In this document: positions 31,284 to 37,768 of the stretch, piece by piece | Numbering within the stretch: position 1 is the first letter of the stretch | Layout: each line of letters begins with the position of its first letter | From: Methanosarcinales archaeon Methan_01 | GTDB taxonomy: Archaea > Halobacteriota > Methanosarcinia > Methanotrichales > Methanotrichaceae | Length of the DNA: 64,000 bases | Reading direction: 5' to 3' | Assembly: GCA_001602645.1 (NCBI GenBank) | Contig: LUYE01000012.1 | Coordinates: 1 to 64,000, forward strand | Program-made: the position numbers and the translations under genes | Notes under the pieces: model-generated | Seen by the model: the letters and a program-made list of their open reading frames with translations, nothing else | The model's database searches: none | What the model was told of the DNA's origin: nothing

Positions 31284-32900
31284 CTAATAAAGGAGTTTCC
31301 CTAAGTTTAATGCTCGCCTGAATCCATAGTGTATTACATAGCGTCTATGTGTCTTTACCTTGGGCGAAATATTTGAGAAATTTCTCTCTCGAAAACACCA
31401 TCTCATGAAATTGTCCTCGTCAAAGGTCTTTTCAGTGTAGCATAAGATGTTGAGATCATAGAGAAATTGTAAAAACTCATCTGCTGTCTCGCAAAAAACC
31501 GGTTTTGTTTTCTTATTTTCTATAATAAATTGTATGAACTTATAATAGGCATCGCAATACTTCTCGTATGTGAAGGTGTATGAACCATCGAGATATTCAA
31601 AGAATTTGAGAAATAATTCATAATCTGCGTTACTATAATAAAATAATATCTGCTCCTTAACCTCACCCAATAAATATATAGATAGTTTTCGTATAAAATC
31701 GTGGCCGTTAAAATCACCCTCTATGAATGCATGCCTTGTATAATTTTGCTCTTTAAAATTCTCTTGCAGAATTGTGAGCATTGTTATGATGTCTCTGGGA
31801 CGATATAATGAGAATCTTAGAAATTGAATAAATGAAGTTGGGGTGGTTAGATTAGGCAACTTCTCCTTTTTTACGCTGGCTGGATCGTACGGAAAATAAT
31901 AGTCCCAAGCTTCGCCTAATTTTAGCTCAGTCTGCTGCTGGCAACTAAGAAGCCGGTCAGCCATCATAAATATTGGTGACTGCCTGTGTGAGCGATATGT
32001 AGTCCGCCAATCAAGTAATATTGAGTTATCTCTAACTTTATTATTTATATTTTGTAATCCTATTGAGTTAAAAATATCTGGCCTTATTAATAATACAATT
32101 CGAAGCCTTCCTTTCGAGTCCTTTATCGAGGAGAAGAAGTCATTGTTTATACTCCATATAGCATTTGATAGCCCCTTTACACATTCTAAGAATTCTACGT
32201 ACGACATGCTTGAAGGTCTGATATCGATACCATCTATAAACAAAATGTGATTATGAGATAGTTTTAACGACCGTAAAGCTTCCTCAAATTTTTTTTGTAT
32301 ATATAATAAGTTTATCTGAAAACGCTGTCCATTAAAGGCCATCTGATGCGATTGTTCGGATCCTACTTTAAGAGTGTGTTTATATATTAGTTCTGCTGCA
32401 AGCTTAGAATCCTCTACAAAATTAAGGGCACAAATAATTTCTGGAGAAAATGCATTAGAGTAATATTCATCAATAGCATCATTAATATCTCTAAATTTAG
32501 AGAAGTTAGAGAGAAATCCTTTGTTCTCTGTTTCCTTAATCTGTTCAGAAATCAATAAATATAAAATGACTTTCCATATATCGTTGTAGTCAGAAATTCC
32601 TAGGTGTTTTTCACGTTTTAACGCAAAAAATCTTTGATAATCCGTTTCTTGTACGTATCTGACGCTTGATATGTTATTTTTATATAAAACATTGTTCGAT
32701 AAATAAACCGCATAAGCTGTTTTTCCGGTCCCTTTTTCACCTAAAAGGAAGAATATATTACTTTCAAGCAGTTTATCTAATGTGTCATCACGGAGAAATA
32801 TATTATTGAAGAACTCTTTACGATCTTTCCTCCTATAATTTATTGCATCGCTGAAACCAAAGTTGAGTTGAAGAATCTCTAGCACTTTAATCAGCCTCAC
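31284..32900 (-). CDS. P-loop ATPase, Sll1717-like
   Basis: 538 residues. N-terminal LNFGFSDAINYRRKDRKEFF, then Walker A GEKGTGKT at 54-61 and Walker B HILFIDGID at about 216-224. The middle shows RIVLLIRPDIF, and a later YRPRDIITML matches my memory of the Sll1717 family of stand-alone P-loop ATPases. The C-terminal part is helical with no recognised domain. Such ATPases are often found in defence islands or near mobile DNA, but no substrate is known. GTG at 32900 fits a TATA-like box at 32924-32933, so the transcript is probably leaderless. Composition is AT-rich with AT-ending codons, unlike the host average. Confidence 0.65.
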   Translation of the reverse strand: MRLIKVLEILQLNFGFSDAINYRRKDRKEFFNNIFLRDDTLDKLLESNIFFLLGEKGTGKTAYAVYLSNNVLYKNNISSVRYVQETDYQRFFALKREKHLGISDYNDIWKVILYLLISEQIKETENKGFLSNFSKFRDINDAIDEYYSNAFSPEIICALNFVEDSKLAAELIYKHTLKVGSEQSHQMAFNGQRFQINLLYIQKKFEEALRSLKLSHNHILFIDGIDIRPSSMSYVEFLECVKGLSNAIWSINNDFFSSIKDSKGRLRIVLLIRPDIFNSIGLQNINNKVRDNSILLDWRTTYRSHRQSPIFMMADRLLSCQQQTELKLGEAWDYYFPYDPASVKKEKLPNLTTPTSFIQFLRFSLYRPRDIITMLTILQENFKEQNYTRHAFIEGDFNGHDFIRKLSIYLLGEVKEQILFYYSNADYELFLKFFEYLDGSYTFTYEKYCDAYYKFIQFIIENKKTKPVFCETADEFLQFLYDLNILCYTEKTFDEDNFMRWCFRERNFSNISPKVKTHRRYVIHYGFRRALNLGKLLY

Positions 32901-35061: not shown

Positions 35062-35856
35062 TCAGACCAGCTTATAAATCTTCATCCTGCCGTTGTCGAA
35101 CTCCTTCGAGAACCCCTCTATATCATCGCCGCTCACCATGCTGGTCAGGATGGTCTGCCTCTTCGGGTACGGCCTCTCATCGGAATTGCCGGAGCTGAAG
35201 TTGGAGGGGATCGCCATGTAATCGTGATAGTTTACTCCGGCGGCCATCAGCACCGCAAAATACTTGCCCAAATCGTCGGACGTCGCCAGCGCATAATCTG
35301 CTCCATACTTTTGGGCGATCTCCCTGGCCGCTGTTACATCCTCAGACCCGGATACGAAGAAATCCGCCACGTCCTTGACCTTCTCGCCAGGCTCGAATGG
35401 ATACCAGAGAGCATATTCTATCTTATGCCAGGGCTTTCTGGGATGAGCGTAGCCGGCGATCGTATTCTTTATCTCCCAGGACGCCTCGTTTATCACAACT
35501 CCGCGGTGCCCAATCTTCTCGATCCCGTCGGCATAATCCCACCAGGCCAGGACCGTCTCATCCTCCTCGGTGTTGTTCGCTAGCCACTGGTAGCCTTCCA
35601 AGCCTTCTGAGTCATTGGCGAAGTAGAGCCAATCCTGGGACTGAAGGTCAGCGAACTCGAGCCTCATCCCCACCAATGCTACGGCGAGGACCAACGCCAG
35701 AATAATTGCTATCCCTGTCATCCTGCTTCTCGTCCTCGACTGCGTTCTCATCGACGTCTCCTCCTGCAGAAAATCGGTTCCAGATGCGTTATTCACCCTC
35801 TGCTTCTTGGGGCACCACCCGGTCCAGTCTTCGACGATCTCACCCAACCGCACCAT
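35062..35856 (-). CDS. Free-standing STT3/AglB-like soluble domain with one membrane anchor
   Basis: 264 residues. One membrane segment (MTGIAIILALVLAVALVGM) at about 46-64. The rest resembles the extracellular C-terminal domain of archaeal oligosaccharyltransferase AglB: GYQWLANNTEEDETVLAWWDYADG with a WWDY motif at 105-108 (the family motif is WWDYG), then GHRGVVIN, REIAQKYGADYALATSDDLGK and a beta-rich end. The 12-13 membrane helices and catalytic acidic loops of a real transferase are missing, so it cannot transfer glycans alone. The gene starts by a one-base TGATG overlap with the HTH gene, implying coupling. Role unknown: a decoy, partner subunit or sensor are possible. Confidence 0.6.
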   Translation of the reverse strand: MVRLGEIVEDWTGWCPKKQRVNNASGTDFLQEETSMRTQSRTRSRMTGIAIILALVLAVALVGMRLEFADLQSQDWLYFANDSEGLEGYQWLANNTEEDETVLAWWDYADGIEKIGHRGVVINEASWEIKNTIAGYAHPRKPWHKIEYALWYPFEPGEKVKDVADFFVSGSEDVTAAREIAQKYGADYALATSDDLGKYFAVLMAAGVNYHDYMAIPSNFSSGNSDERPYPKRQTILTSMVSGDDIEGFSKEFDNGRMKIYKLV

Positions 35857-36302
35857 CAGACCATCTCCTTCACCTTGGAGAATAGCTCCTCTGCCATCTT
35901 CGTCGGATCAGCCGTCCGCTTCAGGGCGATGCCGAGCTCATCAGCGTAATCCCAGAGGAGCCTGATGCATGCCGCGTACTCCTCGCACGCACCACAATCG
36001 CCGTCGTGCTCGTACCAGACCTGCAGGCCATGCCTCCCTGAGACGAAGATTATCGCATCCGTGCCCAGGGGAACCGAGCGGCCAAAGAGGACCCCCAGCT
36101 GGGGATTAATTATCTCGATCGAGATCTTGTTGGCTCTTGCCATCTCCCGGAGGGAGGTCTCGATCTTCCCATCTATCGCAAGAAGGGCCTTCGAGACCGC
36201 CTGTCGGGAGATCCCGAAGCTCGTGGCGATCGCCGAGTTGGATATCCGGGCGCGTCTAAGCTTCCAGAACTCGAACTGTTTTTCGTTGATGAATAAGCTC
36301 AC
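35856..36302 (-). CDS. HTH transcriptional regulator (methanogen type)
   Basis: 148 residues, GTG start at 36302. Residues about 10-45 are a helix-turn-helix of the sigma-region-4/recombinase-like type (FEFWKLRRARISNSAIATSFGISRQAVSKALLAID). The rest is an alpha/beta domain with four Cys in HDGDCGACEEYAACIRLLWDYADELGIALKR; CGAC and CIR may bind metal. Similar small HTH proteins with this tail occur in many copies in methanogens. A TATA-like box at 36326-36334 and an inverted repeat directly before the start suggest self-regulation. It is coupled to the STT3-like gene. Confidence 0.75.
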   Translation of the reverse strand: MSLFINEKQFEFWKLRRARISNSAIATSFGISRQAVSKALLAIDGKIETSLREMARANKISIEIINPQLGVLFGRSVPLGTDAIIFVSGRHGLQVWYEHDGDCGACEEYAACIRLLWDYADELGIALKRTADPTKMAEELFSKVKEMV

Positions 36303-36304
36303 GT

Positions 36305-36324
36305 GTCAACGTCTGAGGGTTGAC
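36305..36324 (-). promoter_or_regulatory. Inverted repeat before the HTH gene: candidate operator
   Basis: GTCAAC (36305-36310) and GTTGAC (36319-36324) are perfect inverted repeats with an eight-base spacer. They lie between the TATA-like box (36326-36334) and the GTG start at 36302, over the predicted transcription start, a place suited to repression by the HTH protein. Confidence 0.5.
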
Positions 36325-36548
36325 ATACTTATAGTTTCCCCTGCCACGCAGCTTAAGCGCTGCCCCGATTTAATCTGCGGTGCGTTATATCCGGGACCCT
36401 CGCCGTCCTCGCTTCCCACCAGGCTCGGGACTTCGGCCGCACCGATGGCCTCCGCCGCGAAGGCGAGGAGTATCAATAAAAACTGTAAAGAGTTCGTATT
36501 ACGTCGAAAACCGCCCCCATATCCGGGATGAACGTTTTGATAAAACAT
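36306..36548 (-). pseudogene. Decayed third copy of the small secreted protein family
   Basis: An open frame of 80 codons containing a signal-peptide-like stretch (LLILLAFAAEAIGA) followed by AEVPSLVG....GEGPGY. This matches the start of the two intact paralogues downstream in coordinate (SEIPNLVG..SGVGPGY at 36644-37066 and ADLPDLVG at 37355-37768). After GPGYN the resemblance stops and the frame ends within the HTH promoter. The N-terminal codons before the signal stretch also look unrelated. I read it as a truncated paralogue whose 3' part was replaced by the HTH/STT3-like operon. Confidence 0.55.
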
Positions 36549-36643: not shown

Positions 36644-37066
36644 TTACTCCACGACCCTGAGGAGGGAGTCTATGTACACCCCGCCCCCTTCGCCGTCCTG
36701 GAGGTAGAGGAGCTCGACCTCATCCTCGGAGACGATCGTCCCCACATCGTACCCGGAGCCGAACTCGGCGATGTAGAAGCCAGTATTATCCAGGGCGATG
36801 ACCCCGGCAAACTCCTCTGTCATCTCGAACCCCTCCTCCGTGTAGGTCACCACCCCGTTGAAGATCCTCCCCCTCTGCTCAGTGACGTTCATGGTGAGGA
36901 TCCCGAAATCCTCATCGCTGACGTACCCTCCTTCGTCCCCATACCCAGGCCCGACGCCGGACCAGAGCCCCACCAGGTTCGGGATCTCTGAAGCCGTCGC
37001 CGAGACCGAATCCGTCGCCATCGACGCCAGGGCGATGGCCAATAGTCCCAAAATCCACCTCTTCAT
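36644..37066 (-). CDS. Small secreted beta-sheet protein, paralogue 1
   Basis: 140 residues. Signal peptide at 1-22 (MKRWILGLLAIALASMATDS). The mature part begins SEIPNLVGLWSGVGPGY and continues with alternating hydrophobic strands (FGILTMNVTEQRGRIFNGVVTY, FAGVIALDNTGFYIAEF, YDVGTIVSEDEVELLYLQDGEGGG). This small barrel-like pattern resembles lipocalin-type or avidin-like folds, but that is only by look. It shares about half its residues by eye with the neighbouring paralogue. A TATA box at 37183-37192 serves it. Confidence 0.7.
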   Translation of the reverse strand: MKRWILGLLAIALASMATDSVSATASEIPNLVGLWSGVGPGYGDEGGYVSDEDFGILTMNVTEQRGRIFNGVVTYTEEGFEMTEEFAGVIALDNTGFYIAEFGSGYDVGTIVSEDEVELLYLQDGEGGGVYIDSLLRVVE

Positions 37067-37354: not shown

Positions 37355-37768
37355 TCACTCCGGAACGCGGCGGAGAATGTCCAGGGATACCCCGCCCATC
37401 TCGCCGTCGCGGAGGTAAAGGAGCTCGATCTCGTCCTCGGAGATGATCGTCCCCAAGTCGTACCCGGCGATGAACTCGGCGATGTAGAAGGTCGTATTAT
37501 CCGGGGCTATCACCCCGGCGAGACCCTCCACAACCTCGCTATCGTTCACGTCCAGGTAGGTGATGGTGCCGTTGAACAATCGGCCCCTCTGCTCGGCGAT
37601 GGTGAGGGTGACGGTGTAGTTCTCTCCTTCTCCGTAGTACCCCTCCAGAGGGTCGTAGCCCATGTCAGGGCCCTCCCAGGTCCCGACCAGGTCGGGGAGG
37701 TCCGCCCCGGAGACGGCCGGGGCCGCGAGGAAGAAGGCCAATATTCCAAAGATCCAGATCGTCTTCAT
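37355..37768 (-). CDS. Small secreted beta-sheet protein, paralogue 2
   Basis: 137 residues. Signal peptide at 1-21 (MKTIWIFGILAFFLAAPAVSG). The mature part starts ADLPDLVGTWEGPDMGY and follows the same strand pattern as the neighbour: LTIAEQRGRLFNGTITY, LAGVIAPDNTTFYIAEF, YDLGTIISEDEIELLYLRDGEMGG. The two genes clearly arose by tandem duplication. The 288 bases between them carry only the promoter of paralogue 1. Function unknown; possibly a ligand-binding envelope protein. Confidence 0.7.
   Translation of the reverse strand: MKTIWIFGILAFFLAAPAVSGADLPDLVGTWEGPDMGYDPLEGYYGEGENYTVTLTIAEQRGRLFNGTITYLDVNDSEVVEGLAGVIAPDNTTFYIAEFIAGYDLGTIISEDEIELLYLRDGEMGGVSLDILRRVPE

Follow-up and report, generated by a model that had tools for sequence, protein, structure and literature searches.

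A coupled HTH regulator and tagged STT3/AglB-like membrane protein in a Methanothrix relative: one variant of a phylum-wide regulator/tagged-membrane-protein operon

Introduction

The SdpR/SdpI system of Bacillus subtilis is encoded by a two-gene operon with the HTH regulator first and its membrane partner second, and sequestration of the repressor has been described for the SdpI family (PMC1626106). EnfR is a Tfx-family repressor in which its authors found no effector domain, and for which they proposed an antirepressor (PMC10570040). In oligosaccharyltransferases (OSTs), the Ser/Thr pocket is formed by the WWD of the WWDYG motif together with the Asp and Lys residues of the DK motif, DXXKXXX(M/I) (PMC3703281). 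Finally, a 2014 study recorded the "MGWCP motif" of DUF1673 (arCOG06827), to which it gave no function, and the presence of this family within fast-evolving "dark matter islands" (PMC4158269).

Here we compare these systems with a gene pair in a window of 64,000 nucleotides, meaning the whole stretch of DNA that was analysed, which lies on contig 58 of an archaeal genome (Methanotrichaceae) of 2.6 Mb in 85 contigs. The nearest relatives of the locus are in Methanothrix. As in SdpR/SdpI, an HTH regulator is followed by a membrane protein. The regulator is similar in size, helix/strand order and HTH type to the Tfx/EnfR "eighth note" regulators (TIGR00721; 8hno, PMC10570040), while the membrane protein displays WWDY, FF...A..IA..Y and the DK motif in the same order as the soluble domain of STT3/AglB (PF21436, PF22627, TIGR04154; PMC3703281), with this domain also anchored after a transmembrane helix. 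In addition, it has the same N-terminal tag as DUF1673 (PF07895).

Results

The pair is located on the minus strand and starts with the 148-aa HTH regulator, which has a GTG start codon (35856–36302), followed by the translationally coupled 264-aa membrane protein (35062–35856). The second gene starts on the final base of the stop codon of the first, giving a one-base TGATG overlap at 35856, and stop-start coupling is also seen in the relatives. Hydropathy analysis placed a single transmembrane segment at residues ~42–71 (35644–35733, minus strand), with an Arg-rich stretch before it. A first-pass annotation of the sequence had described the one-base overlap, a 264-residue protein with one membrane anchor and a promoter-proximal inverted repeat, and all of these are borne out. 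The repeat, GTCAAC-N8-GTTGAC, is spelled GTCAAC-CCTCAGAC-GTTGAC (36305–36324) and ends 2 nt before the HTH start codon, with a TATA-like element, AAACTATAAGTA, providing the putative operon promoter (36326–36337, minus strand). Given this spacing, a leaderless transcript is expected with the repeat lying over the start site, and its operator-like position leads us to expect autorepression, as in SdpR/SdpI. We rejected a chance palindrome, since the repeat is kept in 91 of 92 HTH loci (see below), its exact form has one copy in the 2.6 Mb genome, and a reversed-pattern control gave 0.

Upstream of the pair there are two tandem genes for small secreted proteins of ~140 aa (IPNLVG.W.G.GPGY...) without a Pfam match, with an apparent degraded third copy abutting the upstream side of the HTH promoter (together 36306–36548, 36644–37066 and 37355–37768, minus strand), and one copy is also found upstream of the pair at another locus (L016). 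A 538-aa P-loop protein (31284–32900, minus strand) gave a near-threshold nSTAND3 match (E=4.5e-6) and no PADLOC match, and is positioned within a stretch of lower G+C (0.53–0.55) at 28–36 kb.

A profile search with the HTH regulator returned matches in 72 of 393 Halobacteriota genomes, from which 92 distinct HTH loci were read, although as several genomes are close relatives these loci are not independent. The inverted repeat GTCAAC-N8-GTTGAC, or a variant of it, was present between the TATA box and the start codon in 91 of the 92, with 2 nt separating it from the start codon in 87 of these 91, and most of the 92 also had a TATA-like element 6–9 nt upstream of the operator. Likewise, when a loose test was applied, the first downstream gene encoded an N-terminal G-(W/L/R)-C tag in 87 of the 92 loci. 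Among the remaining five, a tagged gene appears a few hundred bases later in two, the locus extends past the fetched stretch in one, and the HTH is divergent or degraded in two; the HTH partners at L142 and L147 have no recognisable tag. In its general form, E-x-IRKxMGWCPN, the tag is a short cytoplasmic segment on otherwise unrelated membrane proteins. HTHs with an RQGVSQ recognition helix were accompanied by a GTAAAY..ATTTAC operator (12/12) and a G-L-C or L-C-P tag (11/12), and the other HTHs mainly by GTCAAC-type operators and a GWCP tag, the combination seen with an RQAVS helix; at the level of sequence, a change in the recognition helix thus goes along with a change in both operator and tag.

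The link between the HTH and the tag is also seen from the side of DUF1673. Among the tag-containing DUF1673 matches listed, 146 of 147 are within 5 kb downstream of a same-strand HTH, and 53 of the 55 genomes with DUF1673 also possess the HTH, compared with 10 expected, although the exact P value of this excess is best treated with caution given the relatedness of the genomes. We sorted 176 tagged proteins, a list made with a GWCP DNA pattern and in which GWCP is therefore fixed by construction, into 17 unrelated body clusters that include DUF1673, SdpI/DUF1648, Yip1, PH-like and GPDPase-membrane-like bodies, with tagged paralogues forming tandem arrays of up to seven; STT3-like bodies are also among the tagged types. 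Since the same HTH, operator and tag are combined with many unrelated bodies, this system is not specific to glycosylation but is a general operon type.

The tagged partner at L066, the one locus submitted to the Pfam test, matched SdpI/DUF1648 with E=6e-17. SdpI/DUF1648-type bodies with a GWCP tag were observed at L066, L067, L069, L094, L099, L121, L127, L133, L135 and L140 (a cluster of 11), and these proteins may be archaeal equivalents of the SdpI receptor. At L078, the second gene downstream of the HTH has the GWCP tag fused in frame to another body type, which we take to be Wzx-like, that is, a polysaccharide flippase.

Perfect operator sites in 13 genomes were nearly confined to HTH promoters, with a single site, or close to that, per genome. 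Two further sites (L205 and L206) have a TATA box and a perfect operator with no intact HTH gene behind them, and are likely relics of lost operons. With nearly all perfect sites at HTH promoters and the two extras relic-like, we rejected a global regulon. A search of the literature consulted here for experiments on any member of this family found none, and the association of a single repressor family with many different tagged membrane proteins, while widespread in archaea, is apparently undescribed.

In the 264-aa protein, the first ~35 residues form a separate conserved tag, EIVEDWTGWCPKKQ, containing the cytoplasmic GWCP tag at residues 1–20 (35797–35856, minus strand), with the Methanotrichaceae consensus F-x-E-I-I-E-H-W-T-G-W-C-P-K-K-Q. 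The tag motif has a pN/pS of 0.27 in frame against shifted-frame values of 0.77 and 1.38, which indicates purifying selection as protein, and on this basis a non-coding or spurious N-terminal extension was rejected. The tag resembles the DUF1673 N-terminus, and the N-terminal part of PF07895 matches the tags of relatives. However, the 264-aa protein has no counterpart of the DUF1673 membrane part, and the whole PF07895 profile matched neither this protein nor its genome. The two families are bridged at L057, where a protein directly downstream of a same-family HTH unites the tag, a DUF1673-like membrane part and an STT3/AglB core, with the PF07895 match (residues 2–158) and the core both below cut-off. 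A Shine-Dalgarno-like GGAGGAG (35758–35764) precedes an internal ATG at Met36 (together 35749–35764, minus strand). This purine-rich stretch is found in all ten Methanotrichaceae loci and ANME-1 proteins start at the equivalent Met, which suggests either a second start or a scar from fusion of the tag with a single-span ectodomain protein.

The extracytoplasmic region of the 264-aa protein (residues ~86–264; 35065–35601, minus strand) had been annotated as an AglB-like soluble domain with WWDY in place of WWDYG and without the catalytic helices, and each part of this description held at the level of sequence. A single-sequence search matched archaeo_STT3 (E=1.1e-5) and, in the PDB, an STT3A chain (E=2.7e-5), while 19 of the 21 PDB matches to a family profile were OSTs (best E=5.6e-10), and hhalign against the AglB C-termini of the same genome gave a probability of 97.6 and E=2.6e-12 over 120 columns. 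The AlphaFold model, built on a shallow alignment, had a pLDDT of 41. WWDY (residues 105–108; 35533–35544, minus strand) aligns with the WWDYG position of STT3 as part of WWDYADG, where Ala replaces the last residue of the motif, and is invariant in 15 relatives. Likewise, D195-x-x-K198 (35263–35274, minus strand) matches the DXXK of the DK motif and is invariant in the closest set of 14 sequences (alignment A3). With both elements of the Ser/Thr pocket invariant, acceptor recognition is a reasonable reading, and the domain may bind sequons.

Unlike STT3/AglB, the 264-aa protein is single-span, ends its motif as WWDYA and shares its operon with a regulator. It has only one hydrophobic segment, the multi-span catalytic part with its DXD motifs being absent, and therefore it cannot be a catalytic OST. 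PF02516 had no match at the pair locus and four elsewhere in the genome. Other contigs hold the full-length counterparts that the annotation had proposed looking for: the genome has four STT3-family genes with multiple spans, of which three carry WWDYG and the fourth WWDRG. A split OST with its catalytic half adjoining was rejected, as no multi-span STT3 gene is found beside the pair in the examined loci.

Relatives of the STT3-like domain have four layouts. In addition to the tagged Methanotrichaceae form, there is a long tagged form with several predicted spans (L050, L057 and L058), an untagged single-span form in ANME-1-type genomes, once in tandem, and a lipoprotein-like form. The ANME-1-type bodies have neither tag nor HTH, so the STT3-like domain can work outside the circuit. 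At L025 and L026, both ANME-1-type, the untagged gene follows a small gene with an apparent 2TM domain, the tandem duplication being that of L026. The lipoprotein-like proteins (L053–L055 and L061–L063) combine a signal peptide and Cys lipobox with a free STT3-like domain bearing a WWDYAG or WWDYG-type motif, and have no HTH or tag. In the HTH tree, L050, L057/L058 and the Methanotrichaceae HTHs are at different places, and in the ectodomain tree the same three fall in separate clades, a hint that the tag and the STT3 body came together on more than one occasion.

These relatives bear on the idea that the 264-aa protein is an accessory glycosylation factor, namely an acceptor-binding subunit or chaperone acting beside the full AglBs, with the HTH setting its dose and the tag serving insertion or stability without any signalling. 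Conservation of both pocket elements, the four full STT3-family genes in the genome and the existence of untagged and lipoprotein versions without an HTH would all be in keeping with such a role. However, bodies with no relation to glycosylation are found with the same HTH, operator and tag, and the type of tag follows that of the HTH, which dose-setting does not need, and we consider this explanation unlikely. The annotation's own proposal, a control or acceptor-recognition module for surface glycoproteins, survives in part: the pocket residues are invariant and the HTH gene is coupled to the domain, but what is conserved beside the HTH is the GWCP tag and not the STT3 domain. Likewise, acceptor recognition is reasonable, whereas the link to surface glycoproteins finds no counterpart in genes next to the pair, and tagged bodies unrelated to glycosylation also occur.

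The annotation had also called for a survey of co-occurrence, and here the two genes proved inseparable. Of the 50 genomes of the order, ten carry the 264-aa gene and a further fragment lies at a contig end. Within the order the HTH occurs in those ten Methanotrichaceae genomes only, always immediately upstream, with neither gene found alone. Save for one same-genus locus, flanking genes are otherwise unshared among the loci, which identifies the two genes as the unit, and neighbourhood comparison found no link to surface-glycoprotein or glycosylation genes beside the pair. Both ends of one 6656-base contig (G035:C222; L038 and L039) carry the pair promoter and first 21 HTH codons facing outward, which could mean two divergent copies or be an effect of assembly.

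Such a patchy distribution could also be that of an immunity or envelope-stress operon, in which the tagged proteins would guard against membrane-active peptides or toxins, the HTH would be lifted on challenge and the STT3-like body would bind a foreign peptide. The tandem arrays, in which as many as seven tagged paralogues stand together, the location of DUF1673 in "dark matter islands" (PMC4158269) and the SdpI/DUF1648 bodies, SdpI being both the immunity protein and the receptor for the SDP toxin, all fit with this. On the other hand, no toxin gene was seen beside the operons and there was no PADLOC match, most bodies are without a known immunity role, and the sequon-pocket residues are left unexplained by immunity alone, making it an improbable account of the family.

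The AlphaFold model of the HTH regulator (pLDDT 85) has three N-terminal helices, the third of them long, followed by a four-stranded sheet and two helices. Its best fold match in the PDB was EnfR (8hno/8hnp), with a similar order of elements and a probability of 0.97, but with E=0.02 and a TM score of 0.37. Matches to HTH and Tfx profiles were weak: the regulator in the window scored 12.7 bits against TIGR00721, for which the cut-off is 60.25, and 9 of 13 HTH family members gave weak matches (best E=2.6e-5), all below cut-off at family level. For this reason we do not claim membership of Tfx. Nonetheless, the protein probably works like a Tfx regulator, with a His/Cys3 site added in the loop that leads into its C-terminal helices. 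This site, H99-x3-C103-x2-C106-x5-C112 (35967–36008, minus strand), is invariant in alignment A5 and a candidate ligand set for a metal or Fe-S cluster, and H-x3-C-x2-C-x5-C is found in 90 of the 92 HTH proteins. It sets the regulator apart from Tfx/EnfR, as do the autoregulatory-type operator at the start codon and the membrane-protein partner in its operon.

The breadth of this motif raises the question of whether it is the HTH that does the sensing, of redox state or metal and for example through an Fe-S cluster, with the membrane proteins as its output. The motif has a weak Pfam hint of a 4Fe-4S site (E=0.18), its spacing is that of the 4Fe-4S motif with His/Cys ligands in NuoG-type proteins, and the hosts are mostly methanogens and their relatives, likely strict anaerobes. 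However, the motif could be a structural Zn site, and a sensing HTH leaves unexplained both why unrelated outputs should have a short N-terminal tag in common and why the type of tag changes with HTH subfamily. We therefore regard this as a doubtful explanation and the least probable of those considered.

Discussion

The anatomy, homology and linkage of the operon can be read from the sequences themselves, and our preferred reading, which we offer tentatively and rate a little short of an even chance, is that of an autorepressed, leaderless two-gene signalling operon, in which the GWCP tag holds or releases the HTH and the body is an interchangeable sensor. Here, a dimer of the HTH on the operator would block its own operon, and the HTH would dock on the GWCP tag, which would keep it at the membrane or let it go, perhaps via the H-C-C-C site. 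The state of the membrane-protein body would control binding between the tag and the HTH. In Methanotrichaceae, the sensor would bind segments of the Asn-x-Ser/Thr type or a similar extracellular peptide, and build-up of this ligand would alter the hold of the tag on the HTH and so adjust operon expression.

A bacterial precedent for such a mechanism is SdpR/SdpI, where a membrane receptor sequesters an autorepressor. The two systems share SdpI-family bodies, which are among the tagged partners of the HTH family. They differ in that the archaeal regulator resembles Tfx and bears a His/Cys3 motif, its GWCP-tagged partners are mostly non-SdpI, and the 264-aa partner has an STT3-like ectodomain, gave no match to the SdpI profile and has no toxin gene found with it. 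For the operon in the window, the agreement with SdpR/SdpI is one of gene arrangement and operator position only. A more ambitious form of our preferred reading is an archaeal signalling chassis, in which metal- or Fe-S-binding Tfx-fold autorepressors would read any membrane body through a portable GWCP tag of ~17 residues, with the Methanothrix body acting as a sensor of unglycosylated acceptors; taken as a whole, we think this unlikely to be correct.

Few pairs of a membrane receptor and a dedicated repressor have been described in archaea, and the STT3-like version analysed here is one variant of a phylum-wide regulator/tagged-membrane-protein operon. As the regulator family, its operator and the short tag recur across the phylum while the body changes, the tag is the predicted plug between membrane proteins and the repressor. 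The MGWCP/DUF1673 family, known only for its motif, is now tied to a regulator and a DNA site, and the Tfx/EnfR fold, which is without an effector domain, gains a candidate antirepressor. Likewise, the operon places the acceptor-recognition domain of OSTs in a role that is non-catalytic and may be sensory, a novelty should it be confirmed.
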